A stretch of 64,000 nucleotides of DNA from Limnohabitans sp. (GTDB taxonomy: Bacteria; Bacteroidota; Bacteroidia; Flavobacteriales; Flavobacteriaceae): NCBI GenBank assembly GCA_030053945.1, contig JASGCW010000007.1:32119-96118 (forward strand). Reading direction: 5' to 3'. Below are positions 1-51,914 of this stretch, one piece after another (within the stretch, counting starts at the first letter, position 1; each line of letters starts with the position of its first letter). Position numbers and translations under genes: made by a program. The notes under the pieces are model-generated. The model did not search any database. It saw nothing but the letters and a program-made list of their open reading frames with translations, and was not told where the DNA came from.

Positions 1-651
1 GGAAATTTTGTGGATCAAGGTAAAATTTCAGATCATCCAAAAGATCAATCTTATACTTTATTAAGCGAAACAACAAAACTTGATAATCCAGTTTATATTA
101 ATTTTGATTTCACAGTCGATGGCAAACAGTTTCAATGCAAAACACGTTTAGTCATTACGCCACATTTCTCTTTTAATACAAATTTCTTACCACAATATCG
201 AATGAGTAGAACAGAATTTGACACACTTTCTCAACTACCAAATTTTTCAGATGCTATAACTATTGCAAATGGATTTACCATTTTACAAGAAGACACAAAA
301 AACAAATATGCATATCGTGAAATTCAATTACAAAATGATACTTACGAACAAAGTAGAGCCAATTTAAAACAAAATTACCCAGATTTATACAATACATTAG
401 AACCGTTTTATTACAATGCACACGAAATGATGTCATCGGTGTTGAATGATATGTATGATAAAGGTCAATTAACTTATGACGATACCAATAATTATTTAAA
501 CCGTACGGAAGGTGGTTGCAAATTTTGTGTGAATCAATATTGGCAATTTCCTGCTGGCTGCAAATATGGAAAACCTTCAGAAGCCAATGAAAGTGCTGCC
601 TTTTTAGAAAGTGTAGCTAATTATATCATTCAAAACGGAAGTACAAACTAA
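1..651 (+). CDS. Unknown protein, 5' end cut by window edge
   Basis: The reading frame is open from base 1 and the first in-window start-like codon is a GTG at 10, so the gene probably begins upstream. The visible 216 residues have no signal peptide or membrane segment. Near the C-terminus, around residues 170-190, is a run with three cysteines and several aromatics (GGCKFC, then QYWQFPAGCKYG), which could bind metal or form a disulfide. I do not recognise the family. It lies upstream of and in the same direction as the paralog pair, metallophosphoesterase and ferritin-like genes, so it may be the first visible member of that cluster. However, a long hairpin element separates it from the next gene. 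Confidence 0.6.
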   Translation, partial: GNFVDQGKISDHPKDQSYTLLSETTKLDNPVYINFDFTVDGKQFQCKTRLVITPHFSFNTNFLPQYRMSRTEFDTLSQLPNFSDAITIANGFTILQEDTKNKYAYREIQLQNDTYEQSRANLKQNYPDLYNTLEPFYYNAHEMMSSVLNDMYDKGQLTYDDTNNYLNRTEGGCKFCVNQYWQFPAGCKYGKPSEANESAAFLESVANYIIQNGSTN

Positions 652-695
652 AAATTAATATGAGGCTATCTGAAAAGTAGTAAATAAAAGTCTAG

Positions 696-768
696 CTTGT
701 CACTTCGACGATAGGAGAAGTCACATTATCAATATTATGTGATTTCTCTCGCTGGTCGAAATGACAAG
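696..768. repeat. REP-like long imperfect hairpin
   Basis: Two nested inverted pairs face each other. CTTGTCACTTCGAC (696-709) pairs with GTCGAAATGACAAG (755-768), and GAGAAGTCACATTAT (715-729) pairs with ATTATGTGATTTCTC (734-748). This resembles the intergenic palindromes widespread in Flavobacteriaceae genomes that carry a TGTCATTTCGAC-like core. It is not followed by a T-run, so it looks like a dispersed repeat rather than a classical terminator. Confidence 0.75.
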
Positions 769-813
769 ATTACGAGCTTTTCAAGCATCCTCTCTATCAA
801 ACAAACTAACTCA

Positions 814-1602
814 ATGGAATCAATAAATAAAGTACTAACCGCTCCAAACGCTGTGCGAGTATGGAGAGGTTTTAGATTACCTTCTCTACCATTAGATCAA
901 TTCTTTTCAAAACTGGGAACTGTATTCGTTCCTGCTACAGTTAAATTTCAAATTGATGCTGGTTTACATTCTTATACCCCATCAGTTCCAGCAGGATTAG
1001 AAGGAAAGCCTGATTATGTGCCAGACGAAACAGCCGTTTTGTTTTGGCAATCTGTAGAAACGTATTGGAACGGCTTTTCTCGTTTATCTGTGCGTACTTA
1101 TACGCTTACTCACAATGGCTGTTATGTAACTTCAGGACAACCATTAAGTCGTGCTGATTTTCCAGTTGAATTCGATAAAAATACAACACTCCAAGTTGAT
1201 CAACCTGTTTTTCTTTTTGATAAACCTGCCGACTGGATGACTGGAAACATTAAACACTTAGTAGCTGAACGTCCTAGAAATATTGAAATTGAAGATTTTA
1301 AAAAGGGTATCGCAAATATTCTTATTCAAATTCAGGCACTAACACCTCAACTCGATGCAGCCATAGCTTGTATTGGAGATGAGTATATCGTCTATTGGGA
1401 ATTAAGCCCAGCAGCTCCAGGAACGCAAAATCCTACTTCGGGAATAAAATTACTAACAGATTATTTAACTGGTTGGAAAGCAGTTTTTGCTCCAGCACCA
1501 ACATTTTTACCAATTGATATTTATGACATTTGGTCAGGAATGGACGTTCAAGCAGGGAGTAGCTTTAATATGCAGTTTGAACGAAATGAAGAAATAAAGT
1601 AA
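814..1602 (+). CDS. Uncharacterised protein, paralog A of a tandem pair
   Basis: A 262-residue cytoplasmic-looking protein with no signal peptide. I place the start at the ATG at 814 because the upstream in-frame extension runs through the hairpin repeat. It is clearly related to the next gene. Both carry an N-terminal VWRGF segment, then G-(T/S)-VFVP, a GL-x-x-Y-x-P stretch, PD-x-TA-x-x-FW, and the best-conserved block DWM-x-G-x-x-KHLVA-x-RP near residues 140-155. I do not recognise a named family. Its position suggests a shared pathway with the downstream metallophosphoesterase and ferritin-like enzyme. A substrate-binding or structural role is possible, but nothing in the sequence shows catalysis. 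Confidence 0.7.
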   Translation: MESINKVLTAPNAVRVWRGFRLPSLPLDQFFSKLGTVFVPATVKFQIDAGLHSYTPSVPAGLEGKPDYVPDETAVLFWQSVETYWNGFSRLSVRTYTLTHNGCYVTSGQPLSRADFPVEFDKNTTLQVDQPVFLFDKPADWMTGNIKHLVAERPRNIEIEDFKKGIANILIQIQALTPQLDAAIACIGDEYIVYWELSPAAPGTQNPTSGIKLLTDYLTGWKAVFAPAPTFLPIDIYDIWSGMDVQAGSSFNMQFERNEEIK

Positions 1603-1606
1603 ATCT

Positions 1607-1645
1607 TATACACTTGACAGGTTTTAGAAACCTGTCAAGTGTATA
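1607..1645. repeat. Perfect 18-bp inverted repeat with 3-nt loop
   Basis: TATACACTTGACAGGTTT (1607-1624) is followed by TAG and then its exact reverse complement (1628-1645). It fills the gap between the two paralogous genes and starts four bases after the upstream stop. No U-tract follows, so termination is doubtful. A repeat element or an mRNA-processing hairpin is more likely. Confidence 0.85.
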
Positions 1646-1664
1646 GTGATAATAAAACAAACAA

Positions 1665-2462
1665 ATGAAAAAAACAACTACATATCCAGTATTACCAAAT
1701 TCAGTGTATGTATGGAGAGGATTTAAAAGTTCTTCCGATTTTGAAAAATTTTATAATTTTCTGGGAAGTGTTTTTGTTCCTTCTTGCGCACTTTTACAAC
1801 CTAATGTAGGATTAAGAGCTTATTTACCTACGCTTATTCCGCAAACTAATAAACCAAATGCTGTCCCAGATCAAACGGCATTAATGTTTTGGGCAACACC
1901 TGAGTCACATGACGAGGCTAATGAAACGGTTGCTGTACGTGCTTATCAAAACCTTCATGGCGACGTGTATGATATGTCTCGCAGTCATTTGCCTGAAGTA
2001 CCAACGCTATTTCCAAAAAAAGTAACCGATATTCAAATCGAACAGCCTTATTTCTTATTTAAAAACAAAGCCGATTGGATGTTGGGAAGTGTAAAACATT
2101 TGGTTGCTGCACGTCCCGATACTATTTCTACAGGTGATTTTACACAGCTTATTTTTAATTGGGTTACTCAACTGCAAACTGCAAAAATTCCGACAATAGA
2201 TGCAGCTTTAGTTTGCAATGGAAATGATTATTTAGTAGTTTGGATTCACAGTACTAATGAAAAAATGGACTGGACAGGTATCGTACAAGACTTTGAAAGT
2301 CAACTTACAGTTCAATTAAATACAGTACTTCAAAACTTTGAAATGAAAACCACTTTATGGTCTAATTGGGCTGGCATTGATTATTCGAAAGAAGAAAATT
2401 ATGCGTTGAATATTCAGTTAAACAGACCACGATTTACTAAACCCAAAAAAGTTGGCCTATGA
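1665..2462 (+). CDS. Uncharacterised protein, paralog B of a tandem pair
   Basis: A 265-residue protein homologous along its length to the preceding gene (VYVWRGF, GSVFVP, PDQTALMFW, DWMLGSVKHLVAARP), so the pair arose by tandem duplication and then diverged strongly. It has no signal peptide or membrane segment. Its last codons overlap the metallophosphoesterase start by four bases (ATGA), which indicates translational coupling and a functional tie to that enzyme. Family not recognised. Confidence 0.72.
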   Translation: MKKTTTYPVLPNSVYVWRGFKSSSDFEKFYNFLGSVFVPSCALLQPNVGLRAYLPTLIPQTNKPNAVPDQTALMFWATPESHDEANETVAVRAYQNLHGDVYDMSRSHLPEVPTLFPKKVTDIQIEQPYFLFKNKADWMLGSVKHLVAARPDTISTGDFTQLIFNWVTQLQTAKIPTIDAALVCNGNDYLVVWIHSTNEKMDWTGIVQDFESQLTVQLNTVLQNFEMKTTLWSNWAGIDYSKEENYALNIQLNRPRFTKPKKVGL

Positions 2463-4072
2463 GTAATATAACCAATCCGCTTCTTGCATTATGGAAATCG
2501 AGTGTGGCTAAAGTTTTGGCACAATCAAAAAATAAAACACATTTAGGTGCTTTTAGTTCAGATGAAGTAGATGCTCTGTTTAAAGCAACTAACAACTATT
2601 GCAACTTAGTTGAAGCCAATCAAACTCCACAGGATCCAGGAAAAGATTCTGATGATGAGGAAAAAGTAAATACTTATTTATCGCATTTGTATCATATAAA
2701 AGCACATGCTAAAATTGATTCGAATGAAATAAAAGAAAAAGAACTCGAAGCTGAAATTGCCGAATATAAATTTGGAAACCCTCTTTGGCAACAAATGTTT
2801 ATAGAATATTACAAATACTATTGGGATTATCCACACCACAAAGGAGCAGTTCCACAATATCGTTCATGGAAAGATAGTTCTGGTGGTAATGGTGATATAA
2901 ATTATGGTGTCGTTCAATGGAAAATTCCTTCCAATGCTCGCATTGCAATTGTAGGAGATATTGGCACTGGAACTGAAGAAGCAAAAGCAGTACTTGCTGC
3001 TGCTTGTAAATTCAAGCCTGATGTTTTTTTACATTTAGGCGATATTTATTATTCAGGAACCGAGGAAGAAACCCAACAACGGTTAGTAAAAATGGTCAAA
3101 GAAGTACTCCAAAAAGAGAATTGCGAAGTTCCTTTTTACACTATTCCAGGTAACCACGAGTATTTTACAGGAAATGTTTCATTATTAAAAGCTCTAGATT
3201 CTAATGTTCTTGTTAACACAGAAGAACAACGCCAACAAACAAGTTATTTTTGTTTAAAGACAGAAGATGAAAGTTGGCAATTTCTAGGAATGGATACAGG
3301 CTATAACGGTCATTATATGAATGTAGAAAAAGGTGCCAATGCCAATACATTAAAACTTTTACATATTGACCAAGTAGACAATCCTCCTGCCAACTCTGAT
3401 GCACATTGGCCAAAAGATTATAATCCGTACTTCCCCGAAACACAAGAGAAAGCTAAAGATACGACTTCAAATGTTGCAATGATAACCATTAGAACTGATG
3501 AACAAGAATGGCATACTGATAAACTAAATTCGTTTAGCGGAAAAACAATTCTATTGTCACATCATCAGTTGTACTCGGCAAATAATACTTGTGGTGTAGC
3601 TCAAGAAAAAAAATCGGACGGAAGTGTAAATTCAAATGATCCTAATCGTCCTTGGGTGAATACTGCTTTATGGAAGCAATTTGGAAGTTTTCTAGGAGAC
3701 AAAGTTCCATTGTGGTTGTGGGGCCACGAGCATAATTTAGAAATCTTCAAAGATAATTACCGTCCAGAAGATTGGCCAACCGATACCGATTTTGCGAATA
3801 CCTATAAAAATCTGCCTAAAGGTCGTTGTGCAGGACACAGTGCCTTACCTGTCGAAAACACCGAAAATCCATATCAAGTAAATTACCCCGTTCCCCTACT
3901 CGATGAGAATTTAAAACTTGGAATGTCACAAGTAGGCGATAGTTTATGGTACAATCACGGTTTTCAATTATTGGAACTAAAAGGAAAAGATAATGCAGCT
4001 CGTTTAAGTTTTTTTGAAATAACCATTGCAGATAATACAGTATCTCCAATTCATGTGGAATACATAAAATAA
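2459..4072 (+). CDS. Calcineurin-like metallophosphoesterase
   Basis: A 537-residue protein with all signature blocks of the metallophosphoesterase fold: GDIGTG with D167, HLGD with H192 and D195, PGNHE with N232 and H233, SHH at 368-369, and GHEH with H423 and H425. These residues coordinate the two catalytic metals in this superfamily. About 150 residues precede the domain and may form a separate helical module. There is no signal peptide, so it should act in the cytoplasm. The substrate cannot be read from the sequence; phosphodiesters or phosphomonoesters are both possible. It is translationally coupled to paralog B and followed after 27 bases by the next gene, so it sits inside an operon. 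Confidence 0.88.
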   Translation: MSNITNPLLALWKSSVAKVLAQSKNKTHLGAFSSDEVDALFKATNNYCNLVEANQTPQDPGKDSDDEEKVNTYLSHLYHIKAHAKIDSNEIKEKELEAEIAEYKFGNPLWQQMFIEYYKYYWDYPHHKGAVPQYRSWKDSSGGNGDINYGVVQWKIPSNARIAIVGDIGTGTEEAKAVLAAACKFKPDVFLHLGDIYYSGTEEETQQRLVKMVKEVLQKENCEVPFYTIPGNHEYFTGNVSLLKALDSNVLVNTEEQRQQTSYFCLKTEDESWQFLGMDTGYNGHYMNVEKGANANTLKLLHIDQVDNPPANSDAHWPKDYNPYFPETQEKAKDTTSNVAMITIRTDEQEWHTDKLNSFSGKTILLSHHQLYSANNTCGVAQEKKSDGSVNSNDPNRPWVNTALWKQFGSFLGDKVPLWLWGHEHNLEIFKDNYRPEDWPTDTDFANTYKNLPKGRCAGHSALPVENTENPYQVNYPVPLLDENLKLGMSQVGDSLWYNHGFQLLELKGKDNAARLSFFEITIADNTVSPIHVEYIK

Positions 4073-4099
4073 AATAAACCAAACTAATCAAAATAAATT

Positions 4100-5026
4100 A
4101 TGGAACAAATTTTTTCAATTGTACCCAATGTACTCGATGTTAATCTTCAAAATGTTAAGTCAAATAACTCCCTACCTTCGGGTTATACAGCTATGGTAGC
4201 CACTGAAATAGAAGGTCAACATTTACTTTATGCCTTTAACAATCAAACATTATTGACAGATGTATATTCTTTAACTAACAGCAGTGATACTCTTGCTCCA
4301 GTATTGCAAGGTTATGATGGTTTGAACGGTAAAGCTTGGACAATTTTGCATCAATTTACTTTAGGAGATAAACCTTATTTAATGAGTTATGAAGCTACTG
4401 AAGGCAATTTAGCTTTTTACGAAATTAAATCAGATTATAGTTTAAGCAAGCCCTATATTTTTATGAACAAACGCAGTTGGCCTACACAAGGCTTTTCTGA
4501 AGTTACTCCTATAGTAATAACAGGTTTATTATATGTATTAGGCTATGACAAAAGCAAAGGAACAGTAGCAATTTTCAGTTTAGATGTCATCTCGAAATCA
4601 CCAGAAAAAGGCGTACCTCCACTTAATATGTTGAATGTATGGTACCATCAGTGGGCAGCAAAATGGGAAAATTTTGCTTTTTTTACTTTGGGACAATCCA
4701 ACTTTTTCTTTAAAATCAACAAAGGAAAACTAAATGTAAATATTGACCATATACTTGACAATCCATCAGTAGGTTCAGTAGAGATAGGAAGTTATTTACA
4801 GCATAAAATGCCTAATGCATTAGAAGTTATATTATCAGCAAGTATTCCTTGGGAAAACGGAGAGCCATATTTAGCAACTTTAGACGGAACAACAAATTTA
4901 TTAGACATTTATAGAATTCATGCAGATTGTCAAGGTTGGACAAAATTAGGAACAACACAAACAAATTCTGGTACTATAATGATTTCTTATCGTATTGAGG
5001 ATACTTCTTATATTTTACTTTATTAA
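4100..5026 (+). CDS. Uncharacterised protein, possibly beta-rich
   Basis: A 308-residue protein with no signal peptide. It contains repeated segments of the kind (Y/F)-x-(L/I)-x-x-(Y/F) followed by G-x-(A/P)-(W/Y), for example around GKAWTILHQFTLGDKPYLMSY, ENFAFFTLGQ and ENGEPYLATLDG. Such spacing suggests a beta-propeller or another repeated beta-sheet fold, but this is inference from pattern only. It lies between the metallophosphoesterase and the ferritin-like enzyme, in the same direction with short gaps. Function unknown. Confidence 0.6.
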   Translation: MEQIFSIVPNVLDVNLQNVKSNNSLPSGYTAMVATEIEGQHLLYAFNNQTLLTDVYSLTNSSDTLAPVLQGYDGLNGKAWTILHQFTLGDKPYLMSYEATEGNLAFYEIKSDYSLSKPYIFMNKRSWPTQGFSEVTPIVITGLLYVLGYDKSKGTVAIFSLDVISKSPEKGVPPLNMLNVWYHQWAAKWENFAFFTLGQSNFFFKINKGKLNVNIDHILDNPSVGSVEIGSYLQHKMPNALEVILSASIPWENGEPYLATLDGTTNLLDIYRIHADCQGWTKLGTTQTNSGTIMISYRIEDTSYILLY

Positions 5027-5085
5027 AATACACATAAATTAAACCTAAAAGGATTTAGAGACTGTTAGATGTAAAACATAAAACT

Positions 5086-6225
5086 ATGACAACAAATACA
5101 AACATACAGCTACGAGATATCGCTTGGATTAAAACCAATTTACAATCAGCTATCGAATTAGAATTTTCAACATTGCCATTATATTTATCAGCAATGTTTT
5201 CGTTAGAAATTCAAAACTATTCGGCTTATAACCTTATAAGAAGTGTAGCTATGGAAGAAATGGTTCATATGGCTATCGCTTGTAATATGCTTGCGGCTTT
5301 AGGCGGTACTCCAAACATTAAAAACATCCAAGTAAAATACCCTACTCAAGGTTTACCTGGAGGTGCTGAACCAGATTTAAACATAGGATTAGCACAATTA
5401 AGTAAAAACCAAATTCTAAACTTTATGCGCATTGAATGTCCGCTATATCTGTTGGACAAAAACGATTTAGGTGAAGAATACCCTACAATTTCAGTATTTT
5501 ATAACCAAATAAAACAAGCTATTATTGATAATGCTGATGAAGTTCGTGAATTAATCAAAAAAGGAGGAACATCAAATCAAGTAGGTGATGATATAGGTTT
5601 TACAACTTTTGCTTATCAAGAAGGACTTGATCCTGTAAAAATGTTATGTGCAGGTATCGATGAAATCTTAGAACAAGGAGAAGGAAAAGAAAAGGGAGAT
5701 TTAATAACAAGTTCAGAATACGAATATGAAGAATCTCATTATGCTAAATTTGCAGCTTTATACTATGGTAAAGATTATAAAACCCCCGAAGAAAATATTC
5801 CTTTAACAAAAGAAAATGAGCCTAAATTCTTCACTGGAAATCCTATAGGATGGCCGGAAGTAGTTAATACTTTATATGTGCCATCTGATGGTTATGAAAA
5901 ACTACTTACTATAGACCCTAATGGTACCACAATGAAAACAGCCATCGAACAATTTGACACAACTTTTGCAGAAATGTTAACTAATTTAGACTTGGTTTGG
6001 AATGGTTCACAATCTGTCAGTTGGCCTTCTTTTGGAAAAGCAGTACACGGAATGGTAGATTTTAGAGTATTATCTTGTTTCAATATTATGCGTACACAAA
6101 TTGCTGATGAAGTTGTTAAACAAATACCTCAACTTTATCCTGATGAAATTGAAACAATTAAAAAATATACAGATTTAACTAAACCTTTATTTTATGGACC
6201 AAGGTTTATAAATACTAATCAATAA
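5086..6225 (+). CDS. Ferritin-like enzyme of the VioB/RebD (iminophenyl-pyruvate dimer synthase) type
   Basis: A 379-residue protein whose N-terminal half matches the ferritin-like domain found at the end of VioB and RebD. An opening helix reads LRDIAWIKTNL, then IELEFSTLPLYL with E24 or E26 as likely metal ligand, then the first ExxH at E58-H61 (MEEMVHM), then a second ExxH at E215-H218 (YEESHY). These form a carboxylate-bridged di-iron site in the fold. VioB and RebD join oxidised tryptophan units, but many stand-alone members have unknown substrates, so that reaction should not be assumed here. It is the last gene of the 1-6225 cluster and is followed by a strong hairpin. Confidence 0.82.
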   Translation: MTTNTNIQLRDIAWIKTNLQSAIELEFSTLPLYLSAMFSLEIQNYSAYNLIRSVAMEEMVHMAIACNMLAALGGTPNIKNIQVKYPTQGLPGGAEPDLNIGLAQLSKNQILNFMRIECPLYLLDKNDLGEEYPTISVFYNQIKQAIIDNADEVRELIKKGGTSNQVGDDIGFTTFAYQEGLDPVKMLCAGIDEILEQGEGKEKGDLITSSEYEYEESHYAKFAALYYGKDYKTPEENIPLTKENEPKFFTGNPIGWPEVVNTLYVPSDGYEKLLTIDPNGTTMKTAIEQFDTTFAEMLTNLDLVWNGSQSVSWPSFGKAVHGMVDFRVLSCFNIMRTQIADEVVKQIPQLYPDEIETIKKYTDLTKPLFYGPRFINTNQ

Positions 6226-47694: not shown

Positions 47695-47795
47695 TTATTT
47701 TTTTATAAAAGTGTTGCAAAAGTACTAATTAGTAATTAGTAAACAGTAATTAGTAATTAGTTTTTTATAAATTGCATCAAAACCTATTACTACTA

Positions 47796-48542
47796 ATGAA
47801 TATCCCTTTTGAAAATGCCCCTCTATACCATTATATTTTAGAAGTTTTAGCTTTTTTTATTGGAGTACGTTTGTATTATTTTCTAAAAAGAAAAAACAAT
47901 ATTATTTCAGACAACAACAGACTCTGGATACTTTTAGGTGCAATGATAGGTGCATTGTTGGGCTCTAGAATAATTGCAGCTTTTGAAACACCTCAAGAAC
48001 TACCACAGCTGACCCTTTTAAAGTTTTACCAAGCAAAAACTGTCGCAGGTGGTTTTTTTGGTGGATTATTTGGAGTTGAACTGATAAAAAAAATAATTGG
48101 CGAAAAAAAAGCTTCTGGGGATTTATATGTTTATCCAATTCTTGTTGCATTAATCATTGGAAGAATAGGTTGTTTTGGAATGGGAATTACCGAACCTACT
48201 TTCGGGTTAGAGACTTCTTTTTTCACAGGAATGGATTTAGGCGATGGTAAACTAAGACATCCTGTTGCTTTATATGAAATATTTTTCTGCTTCATATTGC
48301 TATTTTTATTTTATTCAATTAGAAAAATAGATTTAGTTAATGGAGACCGATTTAAACTATTTATGCTTTTTTATTTCTTGTATCGTTTTTTGGTTGAATT
48401 CATAAAACCTAATAATTCGTTAATATTTGGTTTAAGCATCATTAATATTATTTCAATATTTATATTTGTTTATTACTATAAATTTATTTTTAGATTCATA
48501 AATTCTAAAATATTATTTACAACTTACAGTCAAAATTCTTAA
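47796..48542 (+). CDS. Divergent Lgt-like membrane protein
   Basis: A 248-residue membrane protein with the overall fold of prolipoprotein diacylglyceryl transferase: seven or so helices, KTVAGGFFGG, IGRIGCF, RHPVALYE and YRFLVEFIKPN. Two key points of bona fide Lgt differ: the H-x-G of the second motif is missing (GGFFGG instead of a histidine-containing line), and the usual GRxGNF asparagine is cysteine (GRIGCF). It may be a related transferase using another acceptor or lipid. The ATG at 47796 is preferred over an upstream TTG. It heads a set with a radical SAM enzyme. Confidence 0.75.
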   Translation: MNIPFENAPLYHYILEVLAFFIGVRLYYFLKRKNNIISDNNRLWILLGAMIGALLGSRIIAAFETPQELPQLTLLKFYQAKTVAGGFFGGLFGVELIKKIIGEKKASGDLYVYPILVALIIGRIGCFGMGITEPTFGLETSFFTGMDLGDGKLRHPVALYEIFFCFILLFLFYSIRKIDLVNGDRFKLFMLFYFLYRFLVEFIKPNNSLIFGLSIINIISIFIFVYYYKFIFRFINSKILFTTYSQNS

Positions 48543-48544
48543 AA

Positions 48545-48664
48545 ATGAAGAATAAAATTATAAAAAGGCTCCTTATAATTATTTTTATAATCATAGTCTT
48601 TTGTATTTTTCATTTACTGGGTGGTGGAAGCATTTTAGATTGGAATTTAGGAAGAATAAAATGA
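48545..48664 (+). CDS. Small 39-residue membrane protein
   Basis: An ATG two bases after the Lgt-like stop encodes a basic start (MKNKIIKRLL), one hydrophobic helix (IIIFIIIVFCIFHLL) and a short tail (GGGSILDWNLGRIK). Its end is seven bases before the radical SAM start, so all three are probably one transcript. No family was recognised. Confidence 0.6.
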   Translation: MKNKIIKRLLIIIFIIIVFCIFHLLGGGSILDWNLGRIK

Positions 48665-48671
48665 GATAAAT

Positions 48672-50057
48672 ATGCCTAATAGAGATTATATATACTACGA
48701 TTATACTAAAAGTGTTTGTCCAGAATGTTTACACTTATGTGATGCCAAAATAGTTTTTCAAGATGATAAAGTTTGGATGCTCAAACATTGTAAAACTCAC
48801 GGTGATTCTAAAGTGATGATTGCTGATGATGTAGAATATTATCGTCAAATCAGAAACTACAACAAACAATCGGAAGTCCCTTTGAAGTTTAATACTAAAG
48901 TACATTATGGTTGTCCATATGATTGCGGTTTGTGTACTGATCACGAACAACATTCCTGCCTATCTATAGTAGAAGTAACCGATAGATGCAACCTTGCTTG
49001 TCCAACTTGCTATGCTTCTTCTGCACCCAATTATGGTAATCATAGAACATTAGAAGAAATTGAAAAAATGTTTGATGCAGTTGTAGCTAATGAAGGCGAG
49101 CCTGACGTAGTTCAAATTTCTGGAGGTGAACCTACAGTACATCCGCAGTTTTTTGAAATTTTAGATATTGCCAAATCAAAACCTATTAAGCATTTAATGG
49201 TAAATACCAACGGAATTCGAATTGCAAAAGACATTCAGTTTGTTGAAAAATTAGCTTCCTATATGCCAGATTTTGAGATTTATCTACAATTTGACAGTTT
49301 TAAACCAGAAGTTCTGAAAAAATTACGAGGTGAAGACTTAACTGAAATCCGTAAAAAAGCCATTGAAAATCTAAATCAATTCAATTTATCTACAACATTG
49401 GTTATTACGCTTCAAAAAGGAGAAAATGATGATGAAATCGGTGAAATTTTAGAATATGCAATCCAGCAAAAATGTGTTCGTGGCGTTACTTTTCAACCTA
49501 CACAAGTGGCTGGAAGAAATGAAAATTACGATGATAACCAAGGTAGAATAACACTTACGGAAGTTCGTCGTAAAATCTATGAGCAGTTTCCAACATTCAC
49601 ACCGCAAGATTTAATTCCAGTTCCTTGTAATCCAGATGCGCTATGTATGGCGTATGCGCTTAAAGTAGATGGAGGAGTTTTCCCAATGACTCATTTGATA
49701 AATCCTGAGGACTTATTAAACAATTCTAAAAATACTATTGTTTTTGAAAGTGATGAAAAACTGAAAAATCATATGTTAAATCTTTTTAGTACTGGAATTT
49801 CTGTAGATTGTGCCGAAGAAGAATTTGGAGAACTAATGTGTTGTTTACCTAGAGTGAAATCCGATAATTTGCATTATGAAAATCTATTCAGAATTATCAT
49901 TATGAATTTTATGGATGCTCACGACTTTGATGTAAGAGCTGTAAAAAAATCGTGTGTTCATATTGTAGATAAACGTGGAAAAATTGTACCTTTTGAAACT
50001 ATGAATCTATTTTATAGAGATAATAAAATTGAAGAAATTCGAAAAAAATTAAATTAA
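48672..50057 (+). CDS. Radical SAM enzyme, MJ0619/Tes-like
   Basis: A 461-residue radical SAM protein with many cysteines. An N-terminal cluster (VCPECLHLCD, HCKTHG) looks rubredoxin-like. A second is GCPYDCGLCTDHEQHSC. The SAM-binding CxxxCxxC (CNLACPTC) is near residue 110, followed by SGGEP. C-terminal cysteines (CNPDALC, CCLP, SC) can hold further clusters. This order matches COG1964, whose archaeal member MJ0619 is Tes, the enzyme coupling lipid tails in tetraether lipids. A role in lipid remodelling is inferred from that and from the Lgt-like neighbour; it has not been shown for this branch. Confidence 0.82.
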   Translation: MPNRDYIYYDYTKSVCPECLHLCDAKIVFQDDKVWMLKHCKTHGDSKVMIADDVEYYRQIRNYNKQSEVPLKFNTKVHYGCPYDCGLCTDHEQHSCLSIVEVTDRCNLACPTCYASSAPNYGNHRTLEEIEKMFDAVVANEGEPDVVQISGGEPTVHPQFFEILDIAKSKPIKHLMVNTNGIRIAKDIQFVEKLASYMPDFEIYLQFDSFKPEVLKKLRGEDLTEIRKKAIENLNQFNLSTTLVITLQKGENDDEIGEILEYAIQQKCVRGVTFQPTQVAGRNENYDDNQGRITLTEVRRKIYEQFPTFTPQDLIPVPCNPDALCMAYALKVDGGVFPMTHLINPEDLLNNSKNTIVFESDEKLKNHMLNLFSTGISVDCAEEEFGELMCCLPRVKSDNLHYENLFRIIIMNFMDAHDFDVRAVKKSCVHIVDKRGKIVPFETMNLFYRDNKIEEIRKKLN

Positions 50058-50059
50058 TT

Positions 50060-50257
50060 ATGGGAGATGTTTTAGCCTCAATAGGAGCTATAATCGCTTT
50101 TATTTGTCCATTCCTATTTTTAGTAGGGTTAATGATATTGTTAGTATCAGCCAAAAAAAGACAAATAGGAATAAAACTAATTGTCATTTCTATCATAGGG
50201 TTTATTATAGGTTTTGGAACTTGTTTAGCGAATCTAAGCCTCGGCGGAATGCATTAA
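50060..50257 (+). CDS. Small membrane protein, twin A
   Basis: A 65-residue protein with two hydrophobic helices (about 8-31 and 37-57) and a final line GFIIGFGTCLANLSLGGMH. It starts three bases after the radical SAM stop. The GFGTCL segment is repeated in the next gene. No family was recognised. Confidence 0.6.
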   Translation: MGDVLASIGAIIAFICPFLFLVGLMILLVSAKKRQIGIKLIVISIIGFIIGFGTCLANLSLGGMH

Positions 50258-50260
50258 ATT

Positions 50261-50449
50261 ATGGACATATTAATCAATTTTATCTTCGCTATTCAAAAGC
50301 TATGTTTAATCACATTAGCTATTGGTATAATAATGTATTTTTTATCTAAAACTGAAAAATATGATGAGTTATCAAAAAAGATAATGCTCTACTCTATAAT
50401 GATAATTTTAATTGGATTTGGAACTTGTTTAGGTAGTTTTTTGTTTTAA
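50261..50449 (+). CDS. Small membrane protein, twin B
   Basis: A 62-residue protein with two hydrophobic helices and the same ending as twin A (ILIGFGTCLGSFLF). It starts four bases after twin A's stop, so they are coexpressed and perhaps form a heteromer. Their helices differ otherwise. Confidence 0.6.
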   Translation: MDILINFIFAIQKLCLITLAIGIIMYFLSKTEKYDELSKKIMLYSIMIILIGFGTCLGSFLF

Positions 50450-50522: not shown

Positions 50523-51914
50523 ATGGTTGCCTATTCAAAAAAAATACTCTTTACTACTACTACTCTAATTTCACTTTTACTCATTTCTTGCGAACTTACG
50601 AAGAAAGATAAAACGTGTTATTTTGGGGGTGAAATTATAAATCCTAACTCAAAGTATATGTACTTATGTAAAGATAATGTCATCATTGATACTATTGAGT
50701 TAGATAAAAACAATCGTTTTTTTCAGAAATACGATACCTTATCTGAAGGAATGTACACTTTTAGGCACGAACCAGAATACCAGTACATTTATTTTGCTCC
50801 TGGTGATAGTTTAATGATTCGGTTGAATACGAATGATTTTGATAATTCCCTTGCTTTTTGTGGTCGGGGTGATCAAAAAAACAATTTTTTAATCGAGTTA
50901 TTTTTAAAAAATGAGGATGTAAAAAACTCTTCTTTTGAAATTTATGATAAAGATTTCAATAAGTTTTCAAAATCGATTGAAACTTCATACGAGAAAAATA
51001 AGACTTTTTACGAAAGAAGAAAAAAAGAAATAGATTGGTCTGATGATTTCGATTTGTATGCCAAAAATATGTTGGATATGCCCTATTTAGCCCAAAAAGA
51101 AATGTATCCACGCATTCATCAAAAGAGAACAGGTGATGATGTATGTGAACTTTTACCTACAGACTATTATTCCTTTAGAAAGAATATCGACTTTAATAAT
51201 GAAAAATTAATGACCTACTCTCCATTTTTGAAATATCTAACTTCAATGTTAGAAAATACAACTCAAAAATGTGAAGATGAGCATCAAAACGTTTTAGAAA
51301 GTAATATTAATAAACTTAAAGTAGCTGATACTATTTTTACAAATAAAAAAATTAAAAATGCTATTTTAAACAACATTGCATTTATGTATCTCCTAGAAGA
51401 TCAAAATGCAGCTAATAACCAATCTTTTATAAAAGAATATTTAAAATTTTCCTCAGATAAAATAAAACAAAAGGATATTATCAAAATATGCGAATCAACA
51501 CAAATGTTATCAACTGGTAAATATTTGAAAGATGTGTCCTTGATAGATAAAGAAAGTAAAAAATATACCAACAGCGAAATTTTCAAAAGAAATACTATAC
51601 TTTTCTTTTGGGTTTCTGATGCCAAATCCCATATGGAGATGGCTCATAAAAGAGCTAATGAATTAAAAGCAAAGCATCCAAATTGGGATTTTGTAGCAAT
51701 TAATATTGACAAATCTACTAAAAAATGGAAAGAAAGTTTGTCAAAACTCAATTGCAACTATATTCTTGAATTACATTCAAATAATTTTGATGATATAAAA
51801 GATAAATGGGTAATTACAAAAATACAAAGAACAATGTTGATTGAAAATGGCGGAAAAATCAAAAATGGATTTGTAAGTTTATTTGATGCAAATTTTGAAT
51901 CTTACTTAAAATAA
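50523..51914 (+). CDS. Lipoprotein with thioredoxin-like C-terminal domain
   Basis: A 463-residue lipoprotein: signal (9-25) with lipobox LLLISC. The region about 30-130 resembles the DUF4369-like N-terminal domain seen on TlpA-type Bacteroidota proteins. The C-terminal third (about 315-460) has the thioredoxin-fold order (LKDVSLIDKESKKYTNSEIF, then TILFFWVSDAKSHMEM). The usual CxxC is replaced by SDAK, so it cannot do thiol redox in the normal way. It ends at a bidirectional terminator. Confidence 0.68.
   Translation: MVAYSKKILFTTTTLISLLLISCELTKKDKTCYFGGEIINPNSKYMYLCKDNVIIDTIELDKNNRFFQKYDTLSEGMYTFRHEPEYQYIYFAPGDSLMIRLNTNDFDNSLAFCGRGDQKNNFLIELFLKNEDVKNSSFEIYDKDFNKFSKSIETSYEKNKTFYERRKKEIDWSDDFDLYAKNMLDMPYLAQKEMYPRIHQKRTGDDVCELLPTDYYSFRKNIDFNNEKLMTYSPFLKYLTSMLENTTQKCEDEHQNVLESNINKLKVADTIFTNKKIKNAILNNIAFMYLLEDQNAANNQSFIKEYLKFSSDKIKQKDIIKICESTQMLSTGKYLKDVSLIDKESKKYTNSEIFKRNTILFFWVSDAKSHMEMAHKRANELKAKHPNWDFVAINIDKSTKKWKESLSKLNCNYILELHSNNFDDIKDKWVITKIQRTMLIENGGKIKNGFVSLFDANFESYLK

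Follow-up and report, generated by a model that had tools for sequence, protein, structure and literature searches.

Lgt transfers diacylglyceryl groups and Tes joins alkyl chains of archaeal lipids; what does an operon do that encodes relatives of both next to a pair of small membrane proteins? We considered this for one operon in the window, by which we mean the whole stretch of 64,000 nucleotides that was analysed. The window belongs to contig C287 of genome G000, which is Flavobacterium-like to judge by its closest relatives. Positions 47796-50449 comprise lgtX, an ORF of 39 residues, a Tes/TrsS-like radical SAM (rSAM) gene and two small membrane twins, separated in that order by gaps of 2, 7, 2 and 3 bases (Table 1). 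The ORFs confirm the gene set and the gaps of 2-7 bases that an initial annotation had given, although that annotation went further, reading the locus as a bacterial membrane-lipid modification system, perhaps one that cross-links lipid chains or attaches lipid to an acceptor other than lipoproteins. Translation of lgtX could also begin at a TTG at 47772, but several relatives start at an ATG that matches 47796.

Table 1. Features of the operon, in positions of the window
Feature	Position	Strand	Description
lgtX	47796-48542	+	Lgt-fold membrane protein, 248 aa
39-aa ORF	48545-48664	+	One hydrophobic stretch
rSAM gene	48672-50057	+	461 aa, Tes/TrsS-like; N-terminal zinc-ribbon/rubredoxin motif, auxiliary cluster motifs
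Small membrane protein 1	50060-50257	+	65 aa, two predicted helices, IGFGTC near C-terminus
Cys55 codon (tgt) of small protein 1	50222-50224	+	Predicted lipid acceptor (from sequence and aligned Cys column)
Small membrane protein 2	50261-50449	+	62 aa, IGFGTC near C-terminus
Cys56 codon (tgt) of small protein 2	50426-50428	+	Predicted lipid acceptor (from sequence)

Conservation of the unit

The initial annotation had suggested checking whether the gene pair is conserved, and we found that the rSAM gene and lgtX are conserved as a unit. In a sample of 199 genomes of the family, run with cut-offs fixed beforehand (4 of its 28 positive genomes are also in the phylum sample described below), the rSAM gene was found in 28 genomes and lgtX in the same 28, while about 4 joint occurrences are expected under independence. 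All 28 pairs lie on one contig, no more than 1.3 kb apart. In every one of the 26 freshly fetched family loci, the lgtX and rSAM frames are open (lgtX, 240-265 aa) and a small cysteine protein starts within 35 bases after the end of the rSAM gene; the remaining two genomes (G000 and G182) also carry a small cysteine protein. Four lgtX matches were flagged with one internal stop, which leaves the reading frame intact.

A sample of 247 genomes of the phylum gave a similar picture with cut-offs that were set after the lists were seen (rSAM, E ≤ 1e-100; lgtX, E ≤ 1e-30). The rSAM protein matched at E ≤ 1e-40 in 22 genomes, 20 of them at E ≤ 1e-100, and all 20 of these have lgtX, on the same contig in 19. 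A few genomes depart from the pattern: the two enzymes lie on different contigs in G034; G017 (L113:5653-6498) is the sole genome of the 247 with lgtX at E ≤ 1e-30 and no rSAM match at E ≤ 1e-40; and G096 has a weak, adjacent pair. At E ≤ 1e-10 the lgtX profile matched 62 of the 247 genomes, and several of the weaker matches, where fetched, resemble ordinary Lgts. A small cysteine protein lies beside the rSAM gene in 19 of the 22 genomes (18 by the criterion given below and G096 by reading); it was not found in G034 or G066, and in G212 the contig ends there.

We also compared 80 loci from named genomes (L003-L082), the best 80 of 340, in which lgtX matched 76 times, including a fragment at a contig end in L006 and two ORFs in L008. 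The four loci with no lgtX match are L014, L069 and L076, which are cut by a contig end, and L067, an exception in which the rSAM gene and a twin are present and lgtX is absent within 8 kb. In L008 (7289-7979; Flavobacterium davisii), the gene split over two ORFs may be broken. An extra ORF, presumably a RhuM-type gene, lies between lgtX and the rSAM gene at L024:7002-8000 and L012:5742-6050, with the unit order still kept. Among viral contigs, 13 pattern matches were seen and none is a relative.

Some neighbours do not belong to the conserved set. The initial annotation had counted in the 39-residue membrane protein; the ORF exists, but it has no match in the 80 related loci (0/80) and its only match is the locus of its own genome (L002). 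Thus, we rejected it as a conserved component; it is probably specific to the window genome and outside the unit. This ORF carries one cysteine. A thioredoxin-like lipoprotein downstream (50526-51914) was likewise rejected as a member, being matched in 19 of the 80 loci, none of them Pedobacter. Elsewhere in the window, the gene run 1-6225 includes a protein (5086-6225) resembling a ferritin-like domain, which we take to be of the VioB/RebD type.

The two enzymes

LgtX has an Lgt fold in its structural model and matches PF01790 at 67.5 bits (cut-off 24.9); it falls far under the NCBIfam Lgt equivalog cut-offs (best 32.1 bits versus 334). As the initial annotation had noted, the catalytic histidine, that of the HGGL motif, is absent: the two possible equivalents of H103 are A84 and F88, depending on the alignment, and by either alignment this residue is His in none of 23 LgtX rows. 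It is A, I, L, V, M or F in these rows, or T in L106 (first alignment) and L121 (second alignment). Other positions are kept, namely the equivalents of the donor-binding arginines R143 and R239 in 23/23 rows and of E243 in 22/23, while Y26 is replaced by H in 20/23 rows and N146 by C in all 23. The 23 rows, which come from both Bacteroidota and Actinomycetota, cluster with one odd row, apart from seven of eight other Lgts (98/99). The replacement of GRxGNF by GRIGCF, to which attention had been drawn earlier, is present in LgtX but is not special, since the same cysteine occurs in five of the eight other Lgt rows; we therefore rejected it as a diagnostic signature.

The loss of the histidine bears on whether LgtX is an enzyme at all. 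In the parts of the papers available to us, H103 is described as essential in E. coli Lgt (PMC4728403; PMC13251419), and because of this LgtX may, by analogy, transfer nothing. The same partial text reports N146C and H103 changes in other Lgts and some accepted Lgts without H103 (PMC13251419). The initial annotation would also have lost ground if lgtX were the only lgt of its genome; a second, canonical lgt is present on another contig, C305 (186.3 bits; motifs SHG and RLGNF).

For the rSAM protein, the two best NCBIfam models are TrsS (NF045646; 325.7 bits) and Tes (NF045702; 286.9 bits), both below their cut-offs (490 and 450, respectively). With a profile of 15 relatives, positions 12-455 align to the Tes structure 7tol (E = 2.4e-75). 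The metal-binding order is that of MJ0619/Tes, as the initial annotation had read it, with C16-x2-C19-x20-C40-x2-H43 followed by C81/C85/C88 with H91 and by the radical SAM motif C106-x3-C110-x2-C113 (CX3CX2C); the rubredoxin, N-cluster and radical SAM motifs are all present. The Tes ligands used for comparison come from the accessible portion of PMC9433317, according to which Tyr459 variants of Tes remain active and the residue is not essential. M411 of the rSAM protein aligns with Tes Met439, and I431 stands at the Tyr459 position.

In a tree of 34 proteins, whose deep forks are unsure given an arbitrary root and several long branches, the 22 window-type rSAM rows cluster with two distant rows (95/88), a second group (95/85) comprises Tes, L108 and four methyltransferase-linked proteins, and four actinobacterial-type rows lie far from both. 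Cross-linking of bulk membrane lipids is thus not supported as the main reading, as the rSAM protein lies below the Tes cut-off and outside the Tes group. The two enzyme families do suggest the link to lipids that the proposed membrane-lipid modification system implies. Flavobacteria are not known for archaeal-type lipids.

The small membrane proteins and their cysteine

ORFs matching the twins number 147 and occur in 78 of the 80 named-genome loci, with one to four copies per locus. We aligned 149 twin rows, including those of the window, that were not selected for cysteine: of the 148 rows with a letter in the column, 147 have Cys, and 147 of 148 rows have Gly six columns before it. The pattern G-x-[GS]-x-C is found in 145 of the 149. 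The claim that the cysteine is conserved rests on these unselected rows and not on alignment A4, in which only G51 and C55 are invariant in 61 rows but the rows were chosen for the motif. Across the small proteins, the last helix and its cysteine are retained, and most of the other sequence varies.

A twin is modelled, with modest confidence (pLDDT 74.9), as a hairpin of two helices, and this model has no PDB neighbour at E ≤ 0.001. The loop between the helices is basic and the tail is not (290 K/R in 145 loops versus 34 in 145 tails), and these charge counts suggest that both ends are outside and the loop inside. The cysteine site matches the classical lipobox [LVI][ASTVIG][GAS]C in 10 of 145 rows and in 0 of 39 rows of a second set (42 ORFs, of which 3 without [GS]-x-[GS]-x-C were left out), the residue at -2 being G or S in every row by choice of pattern; the lipobox pattern found both lipoproteins of the window that were used as controls. 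Judged from these sequences, the site is mostly not a classical lipobox. An ordinary Lgt and signal peptidase II would therefore be unlikely to process it, and this offers a rationale for a specialised Lgt. The earlier idea of lipid transfer to an acceptor other than lipoproteins fits well here, because a candidate acceptor with a conserved, mostly non-lipobox cysteine is encoded in the operon itself.

To recognise such proteins more widely, we used a criterion set after seeing the twins, namely a hydrophobic helix, a basic start and a cysteine no more than 20 residues from the end. All 76 loci with sufficient downstream sequence contain matches, 144 ORFs in total, compared to 0.11 chance matches per equal-length stretch in other parts of these loci. 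L105, L106, L109, L110, L115, L117 and L118 also have small proteins whose last helix is followed by a cysteine. The criterion missed those of L107, L121 and L123, which were found by reading the ORFs or annotated genes. Since profile A4 matches only 5 of the 247 phylum genomes, 3 of them weakly, the distant small proteins rest on the helix-plus-cysteine criterion and on reading by eye; what they share is that feature, and they may or may not be homologous in sequence. An ICMT/PEMT-type membrane methyltransferase (PF04140) directly follows the rSAM gene at L105:6883-7497 and L106:4784-5377; we rejected it as a general component, since it was seen in these two loci only.

A more divergent trio occurs in Mycobacterium and Nonomuraea records. 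Ten plasmid records had a match and eight were examined (L118-L123, L131 and L132, with H5 and H10 left out). In those of Mycobacterium branderi (L120) and M. avium (L123) the order is an Lgt-like gene, two small proteins and the rSAM gene; in that of Nonomuraea (L121) it is a proline-rich membrane protein, an Lgt-like gene and the rSAM gene. All 68 database relatives of one mycobacterial small protein, known here from their own sequences and not from their gene neighbourhoods, keep G-x-C-T at the end of the last helix, and their best-kept part is the block from G-L-M-I-G-W-A to C-T. The actinobacterial-type rSAM protein is very distant from the window type and has no GCPYDCGLC stretch, and for this reason the two types may differ in reaction. 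Four others of the eight records (L119, L122, L131 and L132, from haloarchaea and Mycolicibacterium) have a methyltransferase beside the rSAM relative, DUF547, DUF3179, redoxin or CcdA genes nearby and no annotated lgtX within the examined 3-8 kb on each side. These are presumably TrsS-like.

What the unit may do

We propose, with a probability of roughly 0.4, that the operon is a three-part unit that lipidates its own small membrane proteins, with the rSAM protein altering the lipid. In this model, a phosphatidylglycerol-type donor would supply a lipid group, which LgtX would place on the conserved G-x-C cysteine of each small protein; the Tes-like enzyme would change this lipid either ahead of the transfer or in the course of it. 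The cysteine is a likely acceptor because it is near-constant in otherwise variable proteins, because it would lie at the membrane face that holds the Lgt active site if the topology is right, and because all 28 family genomes encode it beside an Lgt-fold enzyme. The histidine absent from LgtX is the one proposed to handle the lipobox peptide. The weakest step is the role of the rSAM protein, whose substrate would be a lipid chain and not a peptide by analogy with Tes. Against the model, Lgt acts outside the membrane, whereas Tes-like enzymes are expected inside.

We considered that the unit might instead modify free lipid, with the rSAM protein joining or altering membrane lipid chains, LgtX serving a non-protein acceptor or only binding lipid, and the small proteins acting as scaffolds that hold the enzymes at the membrane. 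The relationship of the rSAM protein to Tes fits this idea and the predicted hairpins could be scaffold subunits, but it leaves the near-invariant cysteine of variable proteins unexplained, the rSAM protein and Tes fall into different groups of the tree, and G066, which has a Tes-clade relative, shows no lgtX at E ≤ 1e-10; we consider it unlikely. Slightly less likely still is a modified-peptide system, in which the small proteins would serve as precursors that receive a bond within the peptide from the rSAM enzyme (for example, between the Cys and a nearby Gly) and a lipid from LgtX, giving a lipopeptide or a membrane-active peptide. In its favour, the radical enzyme has one to four precursor-like genes in tandem next to it, a conserved Gly is close to a conserved Cys, and the available part of PMC12636315 describes peptides lipidated via the lipoprotein pathway. 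However, the ORFs beside the unit, read by eye, show no recognised leader peptide, peptidase or exporter, the two best models of the rSAM protein are not peptide maturases, and the suggested topology would place the conserved site at the outer end of a membrane helix, whereas the rSAM protein is presumably a soluble protein of the cytosol.

Two readings deny LgtX its place in this scheme. It might not be a transferase at all, its cavity cysteine C126 forming a disulfide or a metal site together with the small-protein cysteine, so that the unit senses redox or handles metal. Both proteins do have conserved cysteines, which the suggested topology would put at similar depths in the membrane, and the catalytic histidine is missing; yet the donor-binding arginines are kept, and the cavity cysteine also occurs in Lgt rows outside the unit and, in the accessible text, in PMC13251419, which makes this reading improbable. 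Least probable of all is that LgtX is a second, weak lipoprotein Lgt and the rSAM gene an unrelated neighbour. Its model would be MSMEG_5408, which carries Y26H and N146C and is presumed to have low activity (PMC13251419, in part), and LgtX has the same changes in 20/23 and 23/23 rows, respectively; however, lgtX and the rSAM gene are shared all-or-none in 28/28 genomes, and the window genome already has a canonical lgt.

If the lipidation unit is real, it would be a second bacterial route to lipidated proteins besides the general Lgt-Lsp-Lnt pathway, and the names 'prolipoprotein diacylglyceryl transferase' and '7,8-dihydro-6-hydroxymethylpterin dimethyltransferase' would be wrong for the proteins in these units. 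A group of Tes relatives is here tied to a transferase and a candidate protein acceptor, so that its role can be tested by ordinary mass spectrometry. A bolder version, which we think unlikely, is an unnamed protein-lipidation pathway in two phyla, with a C-terminal helix plus G-x-C as its tag, a dedicated offshoot of Lgt and a lipid rebuilt by the Tes-like enzyme (chains cross-linked or otherwise) into a special, perhaps membrane-spanning, anchor. In the open PMC literature, which most subscription journals lie outside, the pair, the trio and the parts in this unit are undescribed in the titles and abstract openings among the matches listed. That Tes homologues of bacteria produce branched tetraether lipids has been suggested, though not proved by experiment, as far as the available parts of these papers go (PMC8941075; PMC11868695).

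Among known systems, the DAG-RiPPs (DybA; PMC12636315) have in common with the unit a small gene-encoded peptide, a modifying metalloenzyme and a lipid on Cys, but theirs is the general lipoprotein pathway with a signal peptide, and the term radical SAM is absent from the available part of that text. Compared to E. coli Lgt (PF01790; 5AZB), LgtX has no H103, mostly H for Y26 and C for N146, and its candidate acceptor mostly does not belong to the classical lipobox proteins. The rSAM protein scores best with TrsS (NF045646), yet below the cut-off of 490. With Tes/GDGT-MAS (MJ0619; 7TOL) it shares the order and spacing of the rubredoxin, N-cluster and radical SAM motifs, and it differs from Tes in its score below the cut-off, in I431 at the Tyr459 position, in its separate clade and in having lgtX alongside.
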